From a virus, in IMG/VR virus record IMGVR_UViG_3300010155_000089, positions 1 to 25,380 of that record: DNA of 25,380 nucleotides. The stretch is one strand, 5' to 3'. The notes beneath the pieces were generated by a model. The model searched no databases. It saw only the letters and a list, made by a program, of their open reading frames with translations, and had not been told where the DNA came from. The position numbers were made by a program, and so were the translations under genes. How positions within the stretch are numbered: the stretch's first letter is position 1; the number at the start of each line of letters is the position of its first letter. Positions 4,466 to 21,163 of the stretch are shown here, piece after piece.

Positions 4466-5329
4466 ATGACTATTCATGAGTGTGTTGGAAACACACCACT
4501 TATCAAGATAAGTGATAAAATATATGCGAAGTTAGAGACTTTTAATCCTTCAGGATCTATTAAAGATCGGATGGCATATTATATAATAAAGAAAGCTGAA
4601 GAATCTGGTGATTTAAGAAAGGGTTATACGATAGTTGAGGCTTCTTCTGGGAATACAGGCATTGCATTTGCTATGTTTGCAGCTGCGTATGGATATAATT
4701 GTATTATTATTATGCCTCGCAACATGAGCGCCGAGCGAAAAAAAATGATGAAAATGTTTGGCGCCAAAATAATTGAAGTCGGACATAATGCATTTAAAAG
4801 CGCGATAAAAAGAAGGGATAAGCTCGTTCATAACTTTGGCACCTATTGGTCTCCAATGCAGTTTAGTAATAAACATAACACTGAGTGCCACGAAACAATG
4901 ACAGCCAGAGAGATCCTCACACAGGTACCTGAAAACATATCTGCTTTGATTGCTGGGTCTGGAACCGGCGGTACTATTATGGGTTGTCATAATTTTTTGT
5001 CGGTGAAATTTCCAGATATGAAAACAGTTCTTGTGAAGCCGTCCGAACCAGCAGAAACCCATGGAATACAAGGCATTAACGATGGTGGTGACTTCTTATG
5101 TGACATGTCAAAAGTTGATGATGTAATAGAAATAACAACAAAAGAAGCCAAAGAGAGATCATGTCGTCTTGCCAAAGAAAACGGCCTTTTGGTTGGTATA
5201 AGCTCTGGAGCAAATATATTGGCTGCAGAAAAATGGGTTAAAAACAATAATCCGCCTGGTATTGTGGTAACATTTTTATGTGACCGTGGCGAAAGATATT
5301 TAAGTTGTTATAATGAAAAAATCAATTAA
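4466..5329 (+). CDS. cysK: Cysteine synthase-like PLP enzyme (CysK fold)
   Basis: 287 residues, shorter than bacterial CysK (about 320). The family beta-replaces the activated hydroxyl of O-acetylserine with sulfide to make cysteine. The PLP lysine is in SGSIKDRM (Lys 33), followed by the substrate loop ASSGNTGIA, the phosphate-binding loop GSGTGGTI and the C-terminal GISSGAN and FLCDRGERYLS. These are all diagnostic. The N-terminus is about 8 residues shorter than CysK before the lysine. Related enzymes with the same fold make cystathionine, phosphocysteine or diaminopropionate, so the exact substrate is not proven. No strong ribosome binding site is visible; the gene is probably coupled to the exonuclease gene. 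It is an unusual phage metabolic gene and lies beside an aminomutase. Confidence 0.88.
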   Translation: MTIHECVGNTPLIKISDKIYAKLETFNPSGSIKDRMAYYIIKKAEESGDLRKGYTIVEASSGNTGIAFAMFAAAYGYNCIIIMPRNMSAERKKMMKMFGAKIIEVGHNAFKSAIKRRDKLVHNFGTYWSPMQFSNKHNTECHETMTAREILTQVPENISALIAGSGTGGTIMGCHNFLSVKFPDMKTVLVKPSEPAETHGIQGINDGGDFLCDMSKVDDVIEITTKEAKERSCRLAKENGLLVGISSGANILAAEKWVKNNNPPGIVVTFLCDRGERYLSCYNEKIN

Positions 5330-5519
5330 TTTTATGTTATTTTTGCTCCTCCTGGGTGTTGTTCATCAAATCGATGGCGATGCTGTTGTGATTAAATATG
5401 AAAAAAGGGGGATAGTAAAATATTCTACAGTTTCTATAGCTGATTCTGTGTGCACTCCACGCGAGGGCCAAAGAGTTTTTTTCTACAAGGACTATAAGAT
5501 CGTAACTTGTGAAGAGTAA
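5313..5519 (+). CDS. Small exported protein
   Basis: 68 residues, overlapping the end of the cysteine synthase-like gene by 17 bp. The N-terminus MKKSINFMLFLLLLGVV is a typical signal peptide or single membrane anchor. The remaining about 45 residues look like a small beta-rich domain with two cysteines (SVCTPREGQ and IVTCEE) that could form a disulfide in the periplasm. No family was recognised. Position within the metabolic pair suggests co-expression rather than related function. It may act on the host envelope, for example in exclusion of other phages, but nothing in the sequence proves this. Confidence 0.6.
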   Translation: MKKSINFMLFLLLLGVVHQIDGDAVVIKYEKRGIVKYSTVSIADSVCTPREGQRVFFYKDYKIVTCEE

Positions 5520-5579
5520 GTTATCTTAAAACACCCTTAGAAAGTGCGACATAATAAAGTTTGCGAAGATATTTAAAGT

Positions 5580-6890
5580 ATGGGCTTTCCATGGAGGCAG
5601 TTTAGAGAAGATGAGTTTTGGAAGAAAATCCCTCTTTGGAAGGATATAGATTATAAAACTTTTATCGATCATAAGTGGCAAGAAAAGAATGCCATCATCA
5701 ATCATAAAAAACTTCTCAAGACTATCCAAGATCTTGTAGATCCGGATTTTCTAGAAGACGCTAAAAACGGCTTCTCACAGGCTCCGATGGCTGTAAGGGT
5801 GTCTCCCTATTTGTTGTCTTTAATCTCCTGGGAAACGCCCATTACTTGCCCAATACGGCGACAATTCTTGCCCCTCGCATCACAACTTTTACCCGACCAT
5901 CCGATGCTGAGATTTGACAGCCTCAACGAACAAGCAGATTCACCAGTAAAAGGGCTCACACATCGCTATGAAGACAAGGTTTTGTTTCTCGCTCTTGATA
6001 CGTGTCCCGTATATTGTCGCTTCTGCACTCGTGCTTACGCCGTTGGCAGCAGCACAATAACAGCAGAAAAAGTTTCTATTAAAGCATCAAGAGAAAGGTG
6101 GGGAAACGTTTTCAAGTATTTGCGAGAGCACAAAGAAATAGAAGATGTAGTAATATCTGGTGGCGATTCTTATCGCCTCAAGCCATCACAGATAAAAGAA
6201 ATAAGTCAAGAGCTTCTAAAGATCGATCACATAAGACGTTTTCGTTTTGCCACTAAAGGGCCAGCAGTAATGCCTATGAAGATTTTAACTGATCATGAGT
6301 GGGTCGATACATTGAGTTACTGGACAGAGAAGGCTCGGAAACAATATAAAGAGGTGTGTGTACATACTCACTTTAATCACGCATCTGAAATAACCAAAAT
6401 TACTCAAGATGCGATGAATCTTTTGTTTGCTAAGGGGATAAAGGTTAGAAACCAGTCTGTATTTCAGAAAGATGTCAATGATAGCTCAGAAGATATGAGA
6501 ATGTTAGTTAAGAAGTTAAGTTATATGAATGTACAACCTTATTATGTTTATGTTCATGATTTGACAGCAGGCACAGAAGATATGAGAACGTCAGTAAAAA
6601 CTGCAATGAATGTGGAAAAACAGGTTCGCGGAATCACCGCAGGCTTTAACACTCCTTTATTTGTGGTTGACGCGCCATCCGGAGGTGGCAAGCGCGCTAT
6701 ACATTCCTGTGAGTGGTATGATACCCTTACTGGAATTAGTGTGTGGAAGGCACCCTCTGTCAAGCCCGGCCAAAAGTTTTTATATTTTGACCCTCTTCAC
6801 TCTTTGCGGCCCGATATTCAAGAGGCGTGGCAGCAAGAAAATTTGCGGGATGGGATGATTGAATGTGCGTTGGGCCGGATAGATTATTAG
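5580..6890 (+). CDS. kamA: Lysine 2,3-aminomutase (radical SAM, PLP-dependent)
   Basis: 436 residues, similar to clostridial KamA (416) and longer than EpmB (about 340). The family moves the alpha-amino group of L-lysine to the beta carbon using S-adenosylmethionine, a 4Fe-4S cluster and PLP. The cluster motif CPVYCRFC has Cys 142, 146 and 149. GGDS gives a SAM-binding motif. The PLP lysine is Lys 371 in DAPSGGGK, and Asp 327 and Asp 364, equivalent to the residues that bind the substrate epsilon-amino group, are present at the same spacing as in clostridial KamA (37 and 7 residues). The site looks intact. Possible roles: beta-lysine as osmolyte, beta-lysylation of EF-P, or an unknown modification. 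The upstream ribosome binding site is weak. Confidence 0.92.
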   Translation: MGFPWRQFREDEFWKKIPLWKDIDYKTFIDHKWQEKNAIINHKKLLKTIQDLVDPDFLEDAKNGFSQAPMAVRVSPYLLSLISWETPITCPIRRQFLPLASQLLPDHPMLRFDSLNEQADSPVKGLTHRYEDKVLFLALDTCPVYCRFCTRAYAVGSSTITAEKVSIKASRERWGNVFKYLREHKEIEDVVISGGDSYRLKPSQIKEISQELLKIDHIRRFRFATKGPAVMPMKILTDHEWVDTLSYWTEKARKQYKEVCVHTHFNHASEITKITQDAMNLLFAKGIKVRNQSVFQKDVNDSSEDMRMLVKKLSYMNVQPYYVYVHDLTAGTEDMRTSVKTAMNVEKQVRGITAGFNTPLFVVDAPSGGGKRAIHSCEWYDTLTGISVWKAPSVKPGQKFLYFDPLHSLRPDIQEAWQQENLRDGMIECALGRIDY

Positions 6891-6919
6891 TTGACATCTC
6901 GAAGCAGATGTGATAATAT
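6891..6919 (+). promoter_or_regulatory. Sigma-70-type promoter for the tRNA-like element
   Basis: TTGACA 6891-6896 begins right after the aminomutase stop codon. A 17 bp spacer leads to TAATAT 6914-6919. The expected start, about 6926, lies 3 bases before the first base of the acceptor stem at 6929. Confidence 0.75.
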
Positions 6920-6928
6920 TTGATGTAT

Positions 6929-6979
6929 GCCCCCGTAGCTCAGCCGTAGGTCGCACGTTCAAATCGTGCCGGGGGTGCA
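6929..6979 (+). pseudogene. tRNA-like element lacking anticodon arm
   Basis: A 7 bp acceptor stem (GCCCCCG 6929-6935 with CGGGGGT 6970-6976, one terminal G-U) and a perfect T arm (GCACG, loop TTCAAAT, CGTGC, 6953-6969) are intact. Position-8/9 TA and the 5' half of a D stem (GCTC) are present, but only 11 bases separate GCTC from the T stem. The D-stem 3' half, anticodon arm and most of the variable loop are gone. The retained parts would form the acceptor/T-arm minihelix recognised by RNase P, the CCA-adding enzyme and EF-Tu. It has its own consensus promoter. It may be a deletion remnant or a functional decoy. The CCA end is not fully encoded. Confidence 0.7.
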
Positions 6980-6987
6980 AAAAAGTG

Positions 6988-7016
6988 TTGACAAACAAGC
7001 AAATATGGTTTATGAT
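6988..7016 (+). promoter_or_regulatory. Sigma-70-type promoter for tRNA-Leu
   Basis: TTGACA 6988-6993, 17 bp spacer, TATGAT 7011-7016. The start is expected near 7023, about 9 bases before the tRNA. The -35 lies only 8 bases after the tRNA-like element, so each RNA has its own promoter. Confidence 0.75.
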
Positions 7017-7031
7017 GAGTTAATGATAAAT

Positions 7032-7115
7032 GGCTGAATGGCGGAACTGGTAGACGCAAGGGACTTAAAATCCCTTGTCCATATGGGCGTGAGGGTTCGA
7101 GTCCCTCTTCAGCTA
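7032..7115 (+). tRNA. tRNA-Leu (anticodon UAA)
   Basis: Full cloverleaf with long variable arm as in leucine tRNAs. The acceptor stem is GGCTGAA (7032-7038) with TTCAGCT (7108-7114), and the discriminator is A 7115. D arm: GCG, loop, CGC. Anticodon stem AGGGA (7059-7063) with TCCCT (7071-7075) carries anticodon TAA at 7066-7068. T arm: GAGGG, TTCGAGT, CCCTC. It reads UUA, a frequent codon in this AT-rich genome. CCA is not encoded. Confidence 0.95.
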
Positions 7116-7148
7116 TTAGTTAAAAAATTAAATACAAGGAAAAAAAAT

Positions 7149-7406
7149 ATGTTTAAGAATTCAGATAAAAGTTTAGTAGAGTATTTCAAAAATATGAGGC
7201 GGCAGCCAGTCAAGAAAATTCAGGCCGCTATTAACAGGGAAGATTGGGATAAAGTCCGGGCATTAGCAACGCACATGAAATGTCCTATCGCACACATCGA
7301 ACAGACACTTATCAATTTTGCTGTAGATGTGGCTCTCAAAGAATATGATATACACAAAGGGGCTATTTGTTTTGGGCCTAGATCTTGCCACCCATCAACT
7401 GATTAA
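7149..7406 (+). CDS. Small unknown protein
   Basis: 85 residues starting at the ATG at 7149, preceded by ACAAGGAAAAAA. The open frame extends upstream to 7038 but only by reading through the tRNA, so that part is rejected. The protein is mostly helical with basic patches (MRRQPVKKIQ, then REDWDKVRALATHMKCP) and ends in RSCHPSTD. No family was recognised. Its promoter may be that of the tRNA, with RNA processing between them. A small regulatory or host-interacting role is possible but nothing in the sequence is diagnostic. Confidence 0.6.
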   Translation: MFKNSDKSLVEYFKNMRRQPVKKIQAAINREDWDKVRALATHMKCPIAHIEQTLINFAVDVALKEYDIHKGAICFGPRSCHPSTD

Positions 7407-10887: not shown

Positions 10888-11175
10888 ATGAATAATTTAA
10901 AGCTAGTGGATGATGGTTTAACTCAAGAAGAGGAAAGGGATCAGTATGTTGTTAAGTATCTTAAATCAATGTTAGCGATTGAAGAGGCAATCGAACCATA
11001 TAAAGAACAGAAAAAAGATCTCCGAAAGGAATATATTGAAAATGGCTGGTTGACTAAAGATGATATTTGGGCCGCAGTAAAAGCTTTTCGTCTCTATGAA
11101 AAAGGTGCTGATATGGATGATCTAAATGAGATGTTCAGCGCTATTGAAAAGAAGTTTGGAGCTTCTAATGTTTAA
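10888..11175 (+). CDS. Small helical protein, possibly GapR-like (DUF2312)
   Basis: 95 residues with AGGAGG placed ideally before the ATG. It is predicted almost entirely helical. The pattern LKSMLAIEEAIEPYKEQKKD, then EYIENGW, a turn and AVKAFRLYEKG resembles the GapR family, which binds overtwisted DNA ahead of forks and transcription: there a long helix reads LKSxxERxxxLExEKxxI, followed by AEAKGNGFD and a second helix. The match is by eye and weak. An unrelated coiled-coil protein is equally possible. Position directly after the reductase gene and before a GroES-like gene suggests co-expression with the replication genes. Confidence 0.6.
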   Translation: MNNLKLVDDGLTQEEERDQYVVKYLKSMLAIEEAIEPYKEQKKDLRKEYIENGWLTKDDIWAAVKAFRLYEKGADMDDLNEMFSAIEKKFGASNV

Positions 11176-11446
11176 ACCTGTTAATAGATATCTGTTAATC
11201 GAGAGGGCTGAAGAACCAGAGAAAGAAGACTCTTGTATTTTAGTTCCCGATGATTATAAAATCGCTAAAAAATCTGCCCATGGGGTGTATAATGTAATTG
11301 ATGCATCGGATGATTGCGAAAAGCTTTTAGACTGCAAGAATAAGAAGATTGTTGTAGATGAAACAATGGTACAAGAAATAGTATTAAACAAAGAAACTTA
11401 CTATTTAGTATTAGAAAACTATGTTTATGGAGTCCATATAGTATAG
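11168..11446 (+). CDS. GroES-like co-chaperonin
   Basis: 92 residues, start ATG at 11168 overlapping the preceding gene by 8 bp and supported by TTGGAG upstream. The open frame extends further upstream but within the neighbour. The layout follows GroES: FKPVNRYLLIERAEEPEKED like the GroES first strands (PLxDRVLVKR), a mobile-loop region ending in ILVPDD, a mid strand GVYNVIDAS like GEVxAVGxG, and a final EIVLNKETYYLVLENYVYGV like the GroES EExLIxxESDILA. T4 gp31 and some other phages replace host GroES so that GroEL can fold the large major capsid protein. Here a similar role is likely. Sequence identity to GroES is low. Confidence 0.6.
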   Translation: MFKPVNRYLLIERAEEPEKEDSCILVPDDYKIAKKSAHGVYNVIDASDDCEKLLDCKNKKIVVDETMVQEIVLNKETYYLVLENYVYGVHIV

Positions 11447-11468: not shown

Positions 11469-12164
11469 ATGGAGAAATTATCAAAAGGTGAACTTTATCA
11501 ATTAGTGAGAGATGCCATGGCTGAAAAAGATCTCATTAAAGAAATGAGTTCTTATAACAGAGTAAGGCACCACATTGAAGGCGGCAATCCATTTGTTATT
11601 ATGTCTTCAGATCGTCATGAGAGAAGCGGAGCTGAAAATAGGCAAGCGTATAAACAGCTAAAACAAGAATTTGCTGCAGCCGGCTTTCCCTTTACTGAGT
11701 TAAAGGGCGGCTTTAAGGAAACCACTAAGGCAGAAACTGATCCTGAAACGGGTGAAGAAGTCGAAGTTGAGTTAGAGGAGCCGGTCCATGTTACAGAAAA
11801 TAGTATTTTAGTTACCTCTCATGCTCGTGGAGAAAACGCAGAGAGCCAGAGCGCCAAAGATTTATTTGATTTTGCAGCACAGATGTCTCAAAAATATAAC
11901 CAAGAGGCATTTATATTTGGAGAGGCTGCGATCACTGCGCGTGGAGATCAAGTAAAAGTCATCAATGCCTATGGCAAAGATGGTAGCCAAATACAAGATT
12001 CTTGGGCCGGCCCTTGGACTAGCGTGGAAACAGTTACTAAAGATGCTGATTTTTGGTCCAGAGCTAGCGGGAAACACTTCCAGTTAAAGGAGTCTAAAAA
12101 GACTTCTCAGCCAAAATCATGGTTTGAGGCGATGAAAAAAAGCAAACAAGGGATGACGTGGTAA
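11469..12164 (+). CDS. Conserved-looking unknown protein
   Basis: 231 residues preceded by AGGGGAAAAAAATGA; the ATG at 11469 is used, since the ATG at 11465 is in a frame that stops at once. The N-terminal helix LSKGELYQLVRDAM recalls the LxxIIKEEL-type leader seen at 3159. The next part (HHIEGGNPFVIMSSDRH, RQAYKQLKQEF, FPFTELKGGF) reads like an alpha/beta fold, loosely similar to DUF3293-type proteins. A mid region is acidic (DPETGEEVEVELEEPV), and a later FIFGEAAITARGD strand pair precedes a basic C-terminus. No catalytic motif was recognised. It lies between the GroES-like and thymidylate synthase genes and overlaps the latter by 7 bp. Confidence 0.7.
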   Translation: MEKLSKGELYQLVRDAMAEKDLIKEMSSYNRVRHHIEGGNPFVIMSSDRHERSGAENRQAYKQLKQEFAAAGFPFTELKGGFKETTKAETDPETGEEVEVELEEPVHVTENSILVTSHARGENAESQSAKDLFDFAAQMSQKYNQEAFIFGEAAITARGDQVKVINAYGKDGSQIQDSWAGPWTSVETVTKDADFWSRASGKHFQLKESKKTSQPKSWFEAMKKSKQGMTW

Positions 12165-19657: not shown

Positions 19658-20132
19658 CAAAACAACAGAATTAATGTTTTCATCAGGAAGGCTTAACTGG
19701 TCTACACCACAAGATTTTTTTGATAAATTAGACGGGGAACTAGGACCCTTTACGCTGGACGCATGCGCGTCGAAGGAAAATACTAAATGTGAAAAATATT
19801 ATTCTTCAAAGGATGATAGTTTAAAACAAGATTGGTCTGAAAATATTGTTTTTTGTAATCCTCCTTACGGACGAGGAATTAAGTACTGGATTAAAAAAGG
19901 ATATGAGGAGTCCTTAAAAAACAACACAAAAGTTGTTATGCTTATCCCATCTAGGACAGATACAAAGTACTGGCATGAGTATGTTATGAGGGCACAGGAA
20001 ATTAGATTTGTGAAAGGAAGGCTAAAATTTGGTAATTCAAGTAATTCCGCACCCTTCCCTTCGGCTGTTGTGGTTTTTAATTCAGGGCCCTCACCTTCCA
20101 TTTCGACAATGCAGAACAGAGGAGAACAATGA
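19650..20132 (+). CDS. dam: Phage DNA N6-adenine methyltransferase
   Basis: 160 residues, start ATG with GGAGGG upstream, overlapping the previous gene. It matches the short phage Dam family (PF05869 type): WSTPQDFFDKLD near the N-terminus, FTLDACASKEN as the SAM-side motif, and the catalytic FCNPPYGRG (the NPPY motif of adenine methyltransferases). LIPSRTDTKYWHEY and FVKGRLKFG are also typical. The enzyme would methylate adenine in phage DNA, for protection from host restriction or to mark strands. No separate recognition domain or cognate restriction enzyme is visible, so the target site is unknown. Confidence 0.9.
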   Translation: MDNKTTELMFSSGRLNWSTPQDFFDKLDGELGPFTLDACASKENTKCEKYYSSKDDSLKQDWSENIVFCNPPYGRGIKYWIKKGYEESLKNNTKVVMLIPSRTDTKYWHEYVMRAQEIRFVKGRLKFGNSSNSAPFPSAVVVFNSGPSPSISTMQNRGEQ

Positions 20133-21163
20133 TCCAACGAGGTTTTAGAGAAAGCTTATCTTTTGATGATGTTTTGCTCGTACCACAATATAGTGAAATT
20201 GAAAGTAGATCTCAGGTTGATATAAGTAGCAATTTAGATAATAATCTTAAATTTACCCTTCCAGTCATTTCCAGCCCGATGGATACAGTGACAGAGGAGG
20301 CCATGGCTATTGCAACACACACTGCCGGCGGTTTCGGCATTGTACATAGATATAATTCAATTAATGAACAAGCTGACATTGTTAAAAGAATTCGAGAGAA
20401 AAATTCTAGCATGCCAGTTGCCGTAGCCATCGGGGCTACTGGCGATTACATCGAGAGAGCCGAGAGAATGGTGCATCTTGGTGTGAAAATATTATGTGTC
20501 GACACAGCCCACGGGCACCATGTAGCAATGGAACGCGCTATCAAAACCTTAAAAGATAATTATGGGCAAAGGACACACATTATGGCTGGTAACGTCGCGA
20601 CTTTGGAAGGATTTAATGCTCTCGCAGAGTGGGGAGCAGACAGTATTCGTGTCGGCATCGGCGGCGGTAGTATATGTTCCACTAGATTGGTTTCAGGCCA
20701 TGGCGTCCCAACTCTACAAAGCATCGTAGAATGTGCCAGAACACCGTATTCAGCAAAAATTATTGCTGATGGCGGGATCAAAACAAGTGGAGACATTGTT
20801 AAGGCCCTGGCCGCAGGTGCAGATTTTGTTATGGTTGGGTCTTTGTTCGCAGGGACAAAGGAGACACCGGGAAATGTTTTTACATCAAACAAAGGAAAGA
20901 AGTATAAAATCTACAGAGGAATGGCATCAACAAAAGCACAAGAAGACTGGAGGGGGAAATCTTCCACCCCGGAAGGAGTTTCAACTACAGTTACCTACAA
21001 AGGGAAGGTTGCTTCTATATTGGATAATCTTTTGGGCGGTATTAGGAGTGGATTTAGCTATTCTGGTGTGCGATCTTTGAAAGATCTACAAATTAAAGCT
21101 AAGTTTATTCGGCAAACCGCCGCTGGCCAAGTAGAAAGCTCTACTCATATTATGAGAAAATAA
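20129..21163 (+). CDS. guaB: IMP dehydrogenase / GMP reductase family enzyme without CBS domains
   Basis: 344 residues forming a single TIM barrel. The CBS (Bateman) insert of ordinary IMPDH, about 120 residues, is missing. The active-site cysteine is Cys 183 in GIGGGSICSTR. LSFDDVLLVPQYS, SSPMDTVTE, IIADGGIKTSGDIVKALAAGAD and the YRGMAS flap region are all family signatures. The C-terminus (GQVESSTHIM) resembles IMPDH AGxxESHPHD more than GMP reductase, favouring oxidation of IMP to XMP on the route to GMP, but the size equals GMP reductase, so this is not settled. Without CBS domains the enzyme would escape nucleotide feedback. It overlaps the methyltransferase gene by 4 bp (ATGA). Confidence 0.88.
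   Translation: MIQRGFRESLSFDDVLLVPQYSEIESRSQVDISSNLDNNLKFTLPVISSPMDTVTEEAMAIATHTAGGFGIVHRYNSINEQADIVKRIREKNSSMPVAVAIGATGDYIERAERMVHLGVKILCVDTAHGHHVAMERAIKTLKDNYGQRTHIMAGNVATLEGFNALAEWGADSIRVGIGGGSICSTRLVSGHGVPTLQSIVECARTPYSAKIIADGGIKTSGDIVKALAAGADFVMVGSLFAGTKETPGNVFTSNKGKKYKIYRGMASTKAQEDWRGKSSTPEGVSTTVTYKGKVASILDNLLGGIRSGFSYSGVRSLKDLQIKAKFIRQTAAGQVESSTHIMRK

Follow-up and report, generated by a model that had tools for sequence, protein, structure and literature searches.

A truncated tRNA-Arg(UCU) element behind a KamA-type gene in a phage genome fragment, probably a recent pseudogene at a homing-prone locus

Whether an element with its own promoter, both ends of a tRNA and no anticodon is a functional minihelix RNA or the remnant of a broken tRNA gene is the question raised by one locus in the IMG/VR virus record IMGVR_UViG_3300010155_000089. 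The window analyzed here comprises positions 1 to 25,380 of that record. This 25.4-kb phage fragment encodes DnaB-like helicase, DNA polymerase, RNR, UvsX-like, Thy1, and KamA-type genes. No GenBank phage close to the window was found by DNA, and by protein only matches below 60% were obtained. The features under discussion are collected in Table 1.

Table 1. Coordinates of the features discussed, in the window unless another record is named
Feature	Record	Position	Strand	Remarks
KamA-type radical SAM protein (lysine 2,3-aminomutase-like)	window	5580..6890	+	directly upstream of remnant promoter; synteny anchor
Sigma-70-type promoter	window	6891..6919	+	TTGACA (6891-6896), 17 nt, TAATAT (6914-6919); 10/12 consensus, TG before -10
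tRNA-Arg(UCU) remnant	window	6929..6977	+	49 nt vs ~74 expected; identical sequence in L001
Acceptor stem, 5′ strand	window	6929..6935	+	GCCCCCG; pairs with CGGGGGT 6970-6976
D-stem 5′ strand and D-loop bases 1-2	window	6938..6943	+	GCTC + AG; D-stem 3′ strand absent
Deletion junction	window	6943..6944	+	25 nt gone between CTCAG and CCGTAGGTC; 3′ side = tRNA position 39|40
Anticodon-stem 3′ strand and variable loop	window	6944..6952	+	CCGT (6944-6947) + AGGTC (6948-6952); same as intact tRNA-Arg of L003 and stump of L017
T arm	window	6953..6969	+	GCACG-TTCAAAT-CGTGC; 5-bp stem, perfect, by sequence and fold
Acceptor 3′ strand and discriminator	window	6970..6977	+	CGGGGGT + G; full CCA not encoded
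Second promoter	window	6988..7016	+	TTGACA-17-TATGAT, ahead of tRNA-Leu; common to L017
tRNA-Leu(UAA), intact	window	7031..7116	+	sole complete tRNA in window; 0/86 changes vs L017
Cassette of type-B tRNA-Arg(UCU) and small HNH endonuclease	L017	2803-3850		
	L032	367-884		
	L095	43-256		
Armless-class member, Polaribacter phage Danklef_1	L230	3995-4051		annotated tRNA-OTHER
Armless-class variant, Lactococcus phages bIL309 and bIL286	L298, L301	1494-1553 in each		60 nt, unannotated, no anticodon arm

From position 6929, the element reads GCCCCCG-TA-GCTCAG-CCGT-AGGTC-GCACG-TTCAAAT-CGTGC-CGGGGGT-G. The 7-bp acceptor stem is made up of six Watson-Crick pairs and a G1-U72 wobble, which is also present in the intact homologue L007, and the predicted fold of the remnant consists of the acceptor stem, the T arm, and an incidental 3-bp hairpin (-20.2 kcal/mol, z -1.55). 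A preliminary description of the element as having an intact acceptor stem and T arm and no anticodon was therefore borne out, as both stems pair unbroken and fold. It had also placed a loss of about 25 bases across the 3′ half of the D stem, the anticodon arm, and the variable loop. The size of the loss and the absence of the D-stem 3′ part agree with this, but the variable loop and the anticodon-stem 3′ strand are still there; the deletion took the anticodon loop and most of the D loop, together with the 3′ strand of the D stem and the 5′ strand of the anticodon stem. With neither anticodon arm nor D stem, the remnant does not qualify as a functional tRNA gene (RF00005).

The promoter reported ahead of the element proved to be near-consensus, and promoter-like sites within 6700-7200 numbered five where 1.0 was expected. 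In the relative L007, an intact tRNA-Arg is preceded by TTGACA-17-TATTAT in the position equivalent to that of the window promoter. To judge from L007, the promoter of the remnant is inherited from the intact tRNA gene.

The remnant was not called when ARAGORN was run on the window, and with the Rfam tRNA model (RF00005), it was under the gathering cut-off and not listed even at E <= 10; a full-length tRNA overlooked by the scanner was ruled out, since both were negative. A covariance model of anticodon-less tRNA-like RNAs matched the remnant with 41 bits (E 5.8e-12), so the element is not a chance structure.

A search of IMG/VR for exact 40-mer matches yielded a single contig, L001, which comes from a different metagenome and has the identical deletion junction. 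The two records share 99.85% identity over 8,872 nt, with 12 mismatches. An assembler could conceivably drop 25 nt between short repeats, but the same junction in a second metagenome, in a contig that differs at those 12 positions, ruled out assembly error as the source of the deletion. An assembly or sequencing error concealing a full tRNA in the real genome is, on this evidence, extremely improbable.

Relatives of the KamA protein are encoded at 14 loci. At one of them, L007, a complete tRNA-Arg(UCU) with a promoter of like layout follows straight after the KamA gene, in the same place as the remnant, and intact alleles of this tRNA-Arg also lie near the locus in L019, L020, L022, L029, L003, L005, and L013. 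The records L029 (190 kb) and L020 (95 kb) each contain three tRNA matches, Arg(UCU), Leu(UAA), and Met(CAU), all at this locus. Like the tRNA-Arg(UCU) genes of large phages (RF00005), the remnant has their acceptor, T-arm sequence, variable loop, promoter, and, as in L007, their place behind the KamA gene; it differs from them in the missing anticodon and D stem, the sub-threshold Rfam result, and the lack of an ARAGORN call. Thus, a relative has the complete parent gene at this locus, and the window copy has lost an essential part, the anticodon, to a 25-nt deletion; both are marks of a pseudogene.

An intact phage tRNA-Arg(UCU) in L286 has the form GTAGCTCAG-CCGGATAGAGCAACGGACTTCTAAT-CCGTAGGTCGCA, with the D loop CCGGATAG, and removal of 25 nt between its two CCG copies reproduces the window junction letter for letter. 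It is plausible that the CCG repeats caused the deletion, L286 serving here as an illustration and not as the established ancestor of the window. A scan of IMG/VR for intact tRNA-Arg genes with similar arms (long-gap pattern) gave 23 loci, L286 among them, and all were of full length. When the truncated form was sought elsewhere in IMG/VR with a gapped pattern, only L001 shared it, and the idea of a conserved lineage of truncated tRNA-Arg was dropped on that result.

The remnant is most probably a recent tRNA-Arg(UCU) pseudogene at a homing-prone locus and is probably still transcribed. A single 25-nt deletion, reaching from the D loop to the anticodon loop, would have left the promoter, acceptor stem, variable loop, and T arm in place. 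The promoter probably still fires, which would yield a minihelix RNA of ~50 nt unable to decode, and the stems may look perfect because the deletion is young. Plain slippage between the CCG repeats may suffice as the route. The case for a pseudogene lies in the intact or replaced tRNA-Arg(UCU) at the same locus in relatives and in a deletion that is real. Counted against it are the unblemished acceptor stem and T arm, with no sign of decay yet, and the maintenance of anticodon-less tRNA-like RNAs by other phages. Arg codons in the window are most often AGA (86/290), and losing the tRNA that reads this codon should cost the phage unless another copy lies outside the 25-kb fragment. The preliminary description had allowed for “simply a recent deletion,” and this is the option that the complete tRNA-Arg(UCU) of L007 supports. 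It had also named, as grounds for giving up a functional reading, a complete tRNA at this site in relatives and random decay of the window copy; the first was found in L007, but the second was not, since the window copy shows no decay as yet.

The nearest relatives of the window at the locus, L017, L018, and L024, have flanks that are 94.7% identical. In these contigs, the place of the KamA gene and of the 5′ half of the tRNA has been taken by an ORF of 142 aa, a different tRNA-Arg(UCU), and an HNH protein of 125 aa (phrog_2255 match, E 3e-33). The stop codon of the HNH gene falls inside CTAATCCGTAGGTC, the anticodon loop of the old tRNA, the 3′ half of which is kept behind the HNH gene as a stump starting from ...CTAATCCGTAGGTC. 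The same gene order is found in L032 and L094/L095, where the cassettes likewise terminate within the anticodon loop of the resident tRNA-Arg(UCU). In these cassettes of a type-B tRNA-Arg(UCU) and an HNH gene, the break is always at the anticodon loop, and the 3′ stump left behind matches the allele of the recipient: the stump of L032 equals the L029/L013 allele, and that of L095 is nearly the L019 allele. Such matches would fit repeated homing, with the 3′ half of the recipient's gene retained each time. Mirror-image 5′ tRNA stumps abut HNH genes in L033, L069, and L074 (just downstream of the HNH gene, on the minus strand), and L033 and L069 also contain, upstream, a complete tRNA-Arg(UCU) of a different type. 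Among relatives of the HNH protein, 63 of 79 are encoded no more than 300 bp from a tRNA gene, with tRNA-Arg(UCU) the most frequent neighbor, and tRNA density around them is 2.3 per kb within 500 bp versus 0.8 farther out.

These cassettes raise an alternative route for the deletion, namely repair after an HNH endonuclease cut in the anticodon loop. The window element could then be an escape scar, formed when short matching ends were joined and the tRNA and the target of the enzyme were destroyed together. The cassette ends in the anticodon loop of this very tRNA (L017/L018/L024, L032, and L094/L095) speak for such an origin, as do the 3′ stumps matching the alleles of the recipients, as repeated homing would give, and the end of the window deletion (39|40), which is within a few bases of the cassette junctions. 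However, an HNH gene of the tRNA-associated family was searched for in the window and L001 and was absent from both, and chance alone would often place a 25-nt deletion in a tRNA across its anticodon loop. The cut by the enzyme in that loop is itself hypothetical. We regard an escape scar as possible but doubtful.

A recent pseudogene was also weighed against a functional RNA, for which the preliminary description had cited the lack of mismatches in the stems. This argument did not stand. The sole other copy, L001, is too similar to be informative, since a divergence of 0.14% over 8.9 kb leaves ~0.07 changes expected in 49 nt. In addition, L017/L018/L024 keep a 3′ stump of this tRNA that is plainly dead yet has an equally perfect T arm, so intact stems are not evidence of function. 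Of 34 sites in the 3′ part of the remnant, three differ from the L017 stump, whereas the neighboring tRNA-Leu is unchanged over its 86 (Fisher p 0.02). All three differences would be tolerable in a tRNA, comprising one compensated T-stem pair and A/G at position 57, and they may therefore predate both lesions. More generally, intact stems in a lone truncated tRNA should be taken with caution, as they do not prove function.

To see if tRNA-like RNAs without an anticodon form a kind, IMG/VR was scanned with the pattern GTAGCTCAG-N5..30-GGTTCGANTCC. The matches peaked at 40-43 nt, where the acceptor, D, and T arms are intact and a linker of 8-10 nt (about CYTDGGTC) replaces the anticodon arm. In alignment A1 (35 members, including L114, L116, L117, L135, L140, L151, L164, L168, L169, L171, L179, L180, L187, L195, L197, L221, L224, L229, and others), 98.2% of cells pair, a percentage inflated by preselection of the sequences for >= 6/7 acceptor pairs. 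Double changes number 157 versus 48 in shuffles, and the covariation score is 0.706 versus 0.153. Internal parts can be identical across hosts while the acceptors differ, as between Danklef_1 and an Oleispira contig. Cellular genomes (257 Gb) gave 36 matches to the same pattern, some due to chance, and the class is enriched in viral contigs. Its neighbor genes are of various kinds, among which those for head, terminase, portal, and tail proteins are frequent. ARAGORN missed the RNAs of this class. The RNA of bIL309 and bIL286 is a longer variant with 7/7 acceptor pairs, situated downstream of the endolysin and ~200 bp from the record end, and near-identical places occur in P335, TP712, and other Lactococcus phages. 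The 44-nt matches from a looser scan for truncated tRNAs were set aside as ordinary tRNA-Met in a shifted register. A search of the literature for anticodon-less phage tRNA-like RNAs found no description, which is weak evidence given the limited coverage; within the literature searched, the class seems undescribed.

The window element shares with the armless RNAs (those of IMG/VR, Danklef_1, bIL309, and bIL286) an acceptor stem and a T arm with no anticodon arm, but in those RNAs a D arm and a linker of 8-10 nt are retained, and none of the sites inspected has a tRNA parent. The class is defined by a D arm GCTC/GAGC and 8-10 nt between the D and T arms; in the window, the D-stem 3′ strand is gone, and the element is ~9 nt too short. 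With the class model (R1), the window scored 41 bits, the intact tRNA-Args of relatives scored 45-58, and Danklef_1 scored 75. Because intact tRNA-Args outscore the window, a match to this model measures tRNA likeness only, and membership of the window in the class was rejected although the model matches it. An armless-class parent was considered as well, as a loss of 9 nt from it would give the same letters; L007 and the L017 stump (CTAAT before CCGTAGG) favor a full tRNA-Arg.

Because other phages keep anticodon-less tRNA-like RNAs, a decoy, primer, or minihelix function is still conceivable for the remnant. The phage might, for instance, use the acceptor stem and T arm alone to divert enzymes that process or cut tRNAs, or to provide a site at which RNase P trims the transcript. 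Such a reading draws on the existence of a covarying class, on three shorter relatives of that class (L158, L220, and L237) in which, as in the window, the D-stem 3′ strand is missing, and on the good promoter and perfect stems kept here. It is opposed by the absence of the D arm and 8-nt linker of the class, a class-model score lower than those of intact tRNA-Args, the lack of a second lineage with the truncated form at the locus, and a tRNA-Arg parent that is plainly recognizable at this site. It is very unlikely that the remnant arose independently as a functional anticodon-less tRNA-like RNA, with a minihelix that is both made and useful to the phage, as seems to hold for the separate armless class in other phages.

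Taken by itself, the remnant interpreted as a pseudogene adds a further case to the broken tRNA genes of phages. At the same locus, however, tRNA-Arg(UCU) has been kept, swapped for an HNH gene plus tRNA, or deleted, depending on the relative, which makes tRNA turnover by homing endonucleases testable. Pseudogenes of tRNAs have been reported in T4-like phages (PMC1524935), and mobile elements leave fragments of tRNA genes (PMC9897764). As in the window, these are partial tRNAs that scanners mislabel or miss, located by mobile nucleases or integration sites; the window remnant differs in keeping both ends and losing the middle and in having no attachment-site duplication. The homing endonuclease SegB of phages T4/T6 is tied to tRNA genes and rearranges them (PMC13096335), and a passage of PMC10448857 citing Brok-Volchanskaya 2008 connects SegB-type endonucleases with phage tRNA regions. 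Like the HNH proteins of the window relatives, SegB-type enzymes are mobile endonucleases beside phage tRNA genes that replace or rearrange them. The HNH gene described here occurs only in the relatives and is absent from the window, and SegB is not known to belong to the HNH family.

Several further genes were observed. ARAGORN called tmRNA genes in two phage contigs related to the window, L010 (1764-2127) and L018 (1815-2117), the latter call lying ~1.6 kb upstream of the swapped tRNA-Arg. In the window, positions 4466-6890 encode a cysteine-synthase-like PLP enzyme followed by the KamA-type radical SAM protein, metabolic genes that are unusual in a virus. A GroES-like co-chaperonin is encoded at 11126-11446, and the product of 11469-12164 has a weak match to the SAM-lyase family (possibly an anti-restriction enzyme). 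An IMP dehydrogenase/GMP reductase domain (Pfam E 1.6e-112) at 20129-21163 adjoins a Dam-type methyltransferase.
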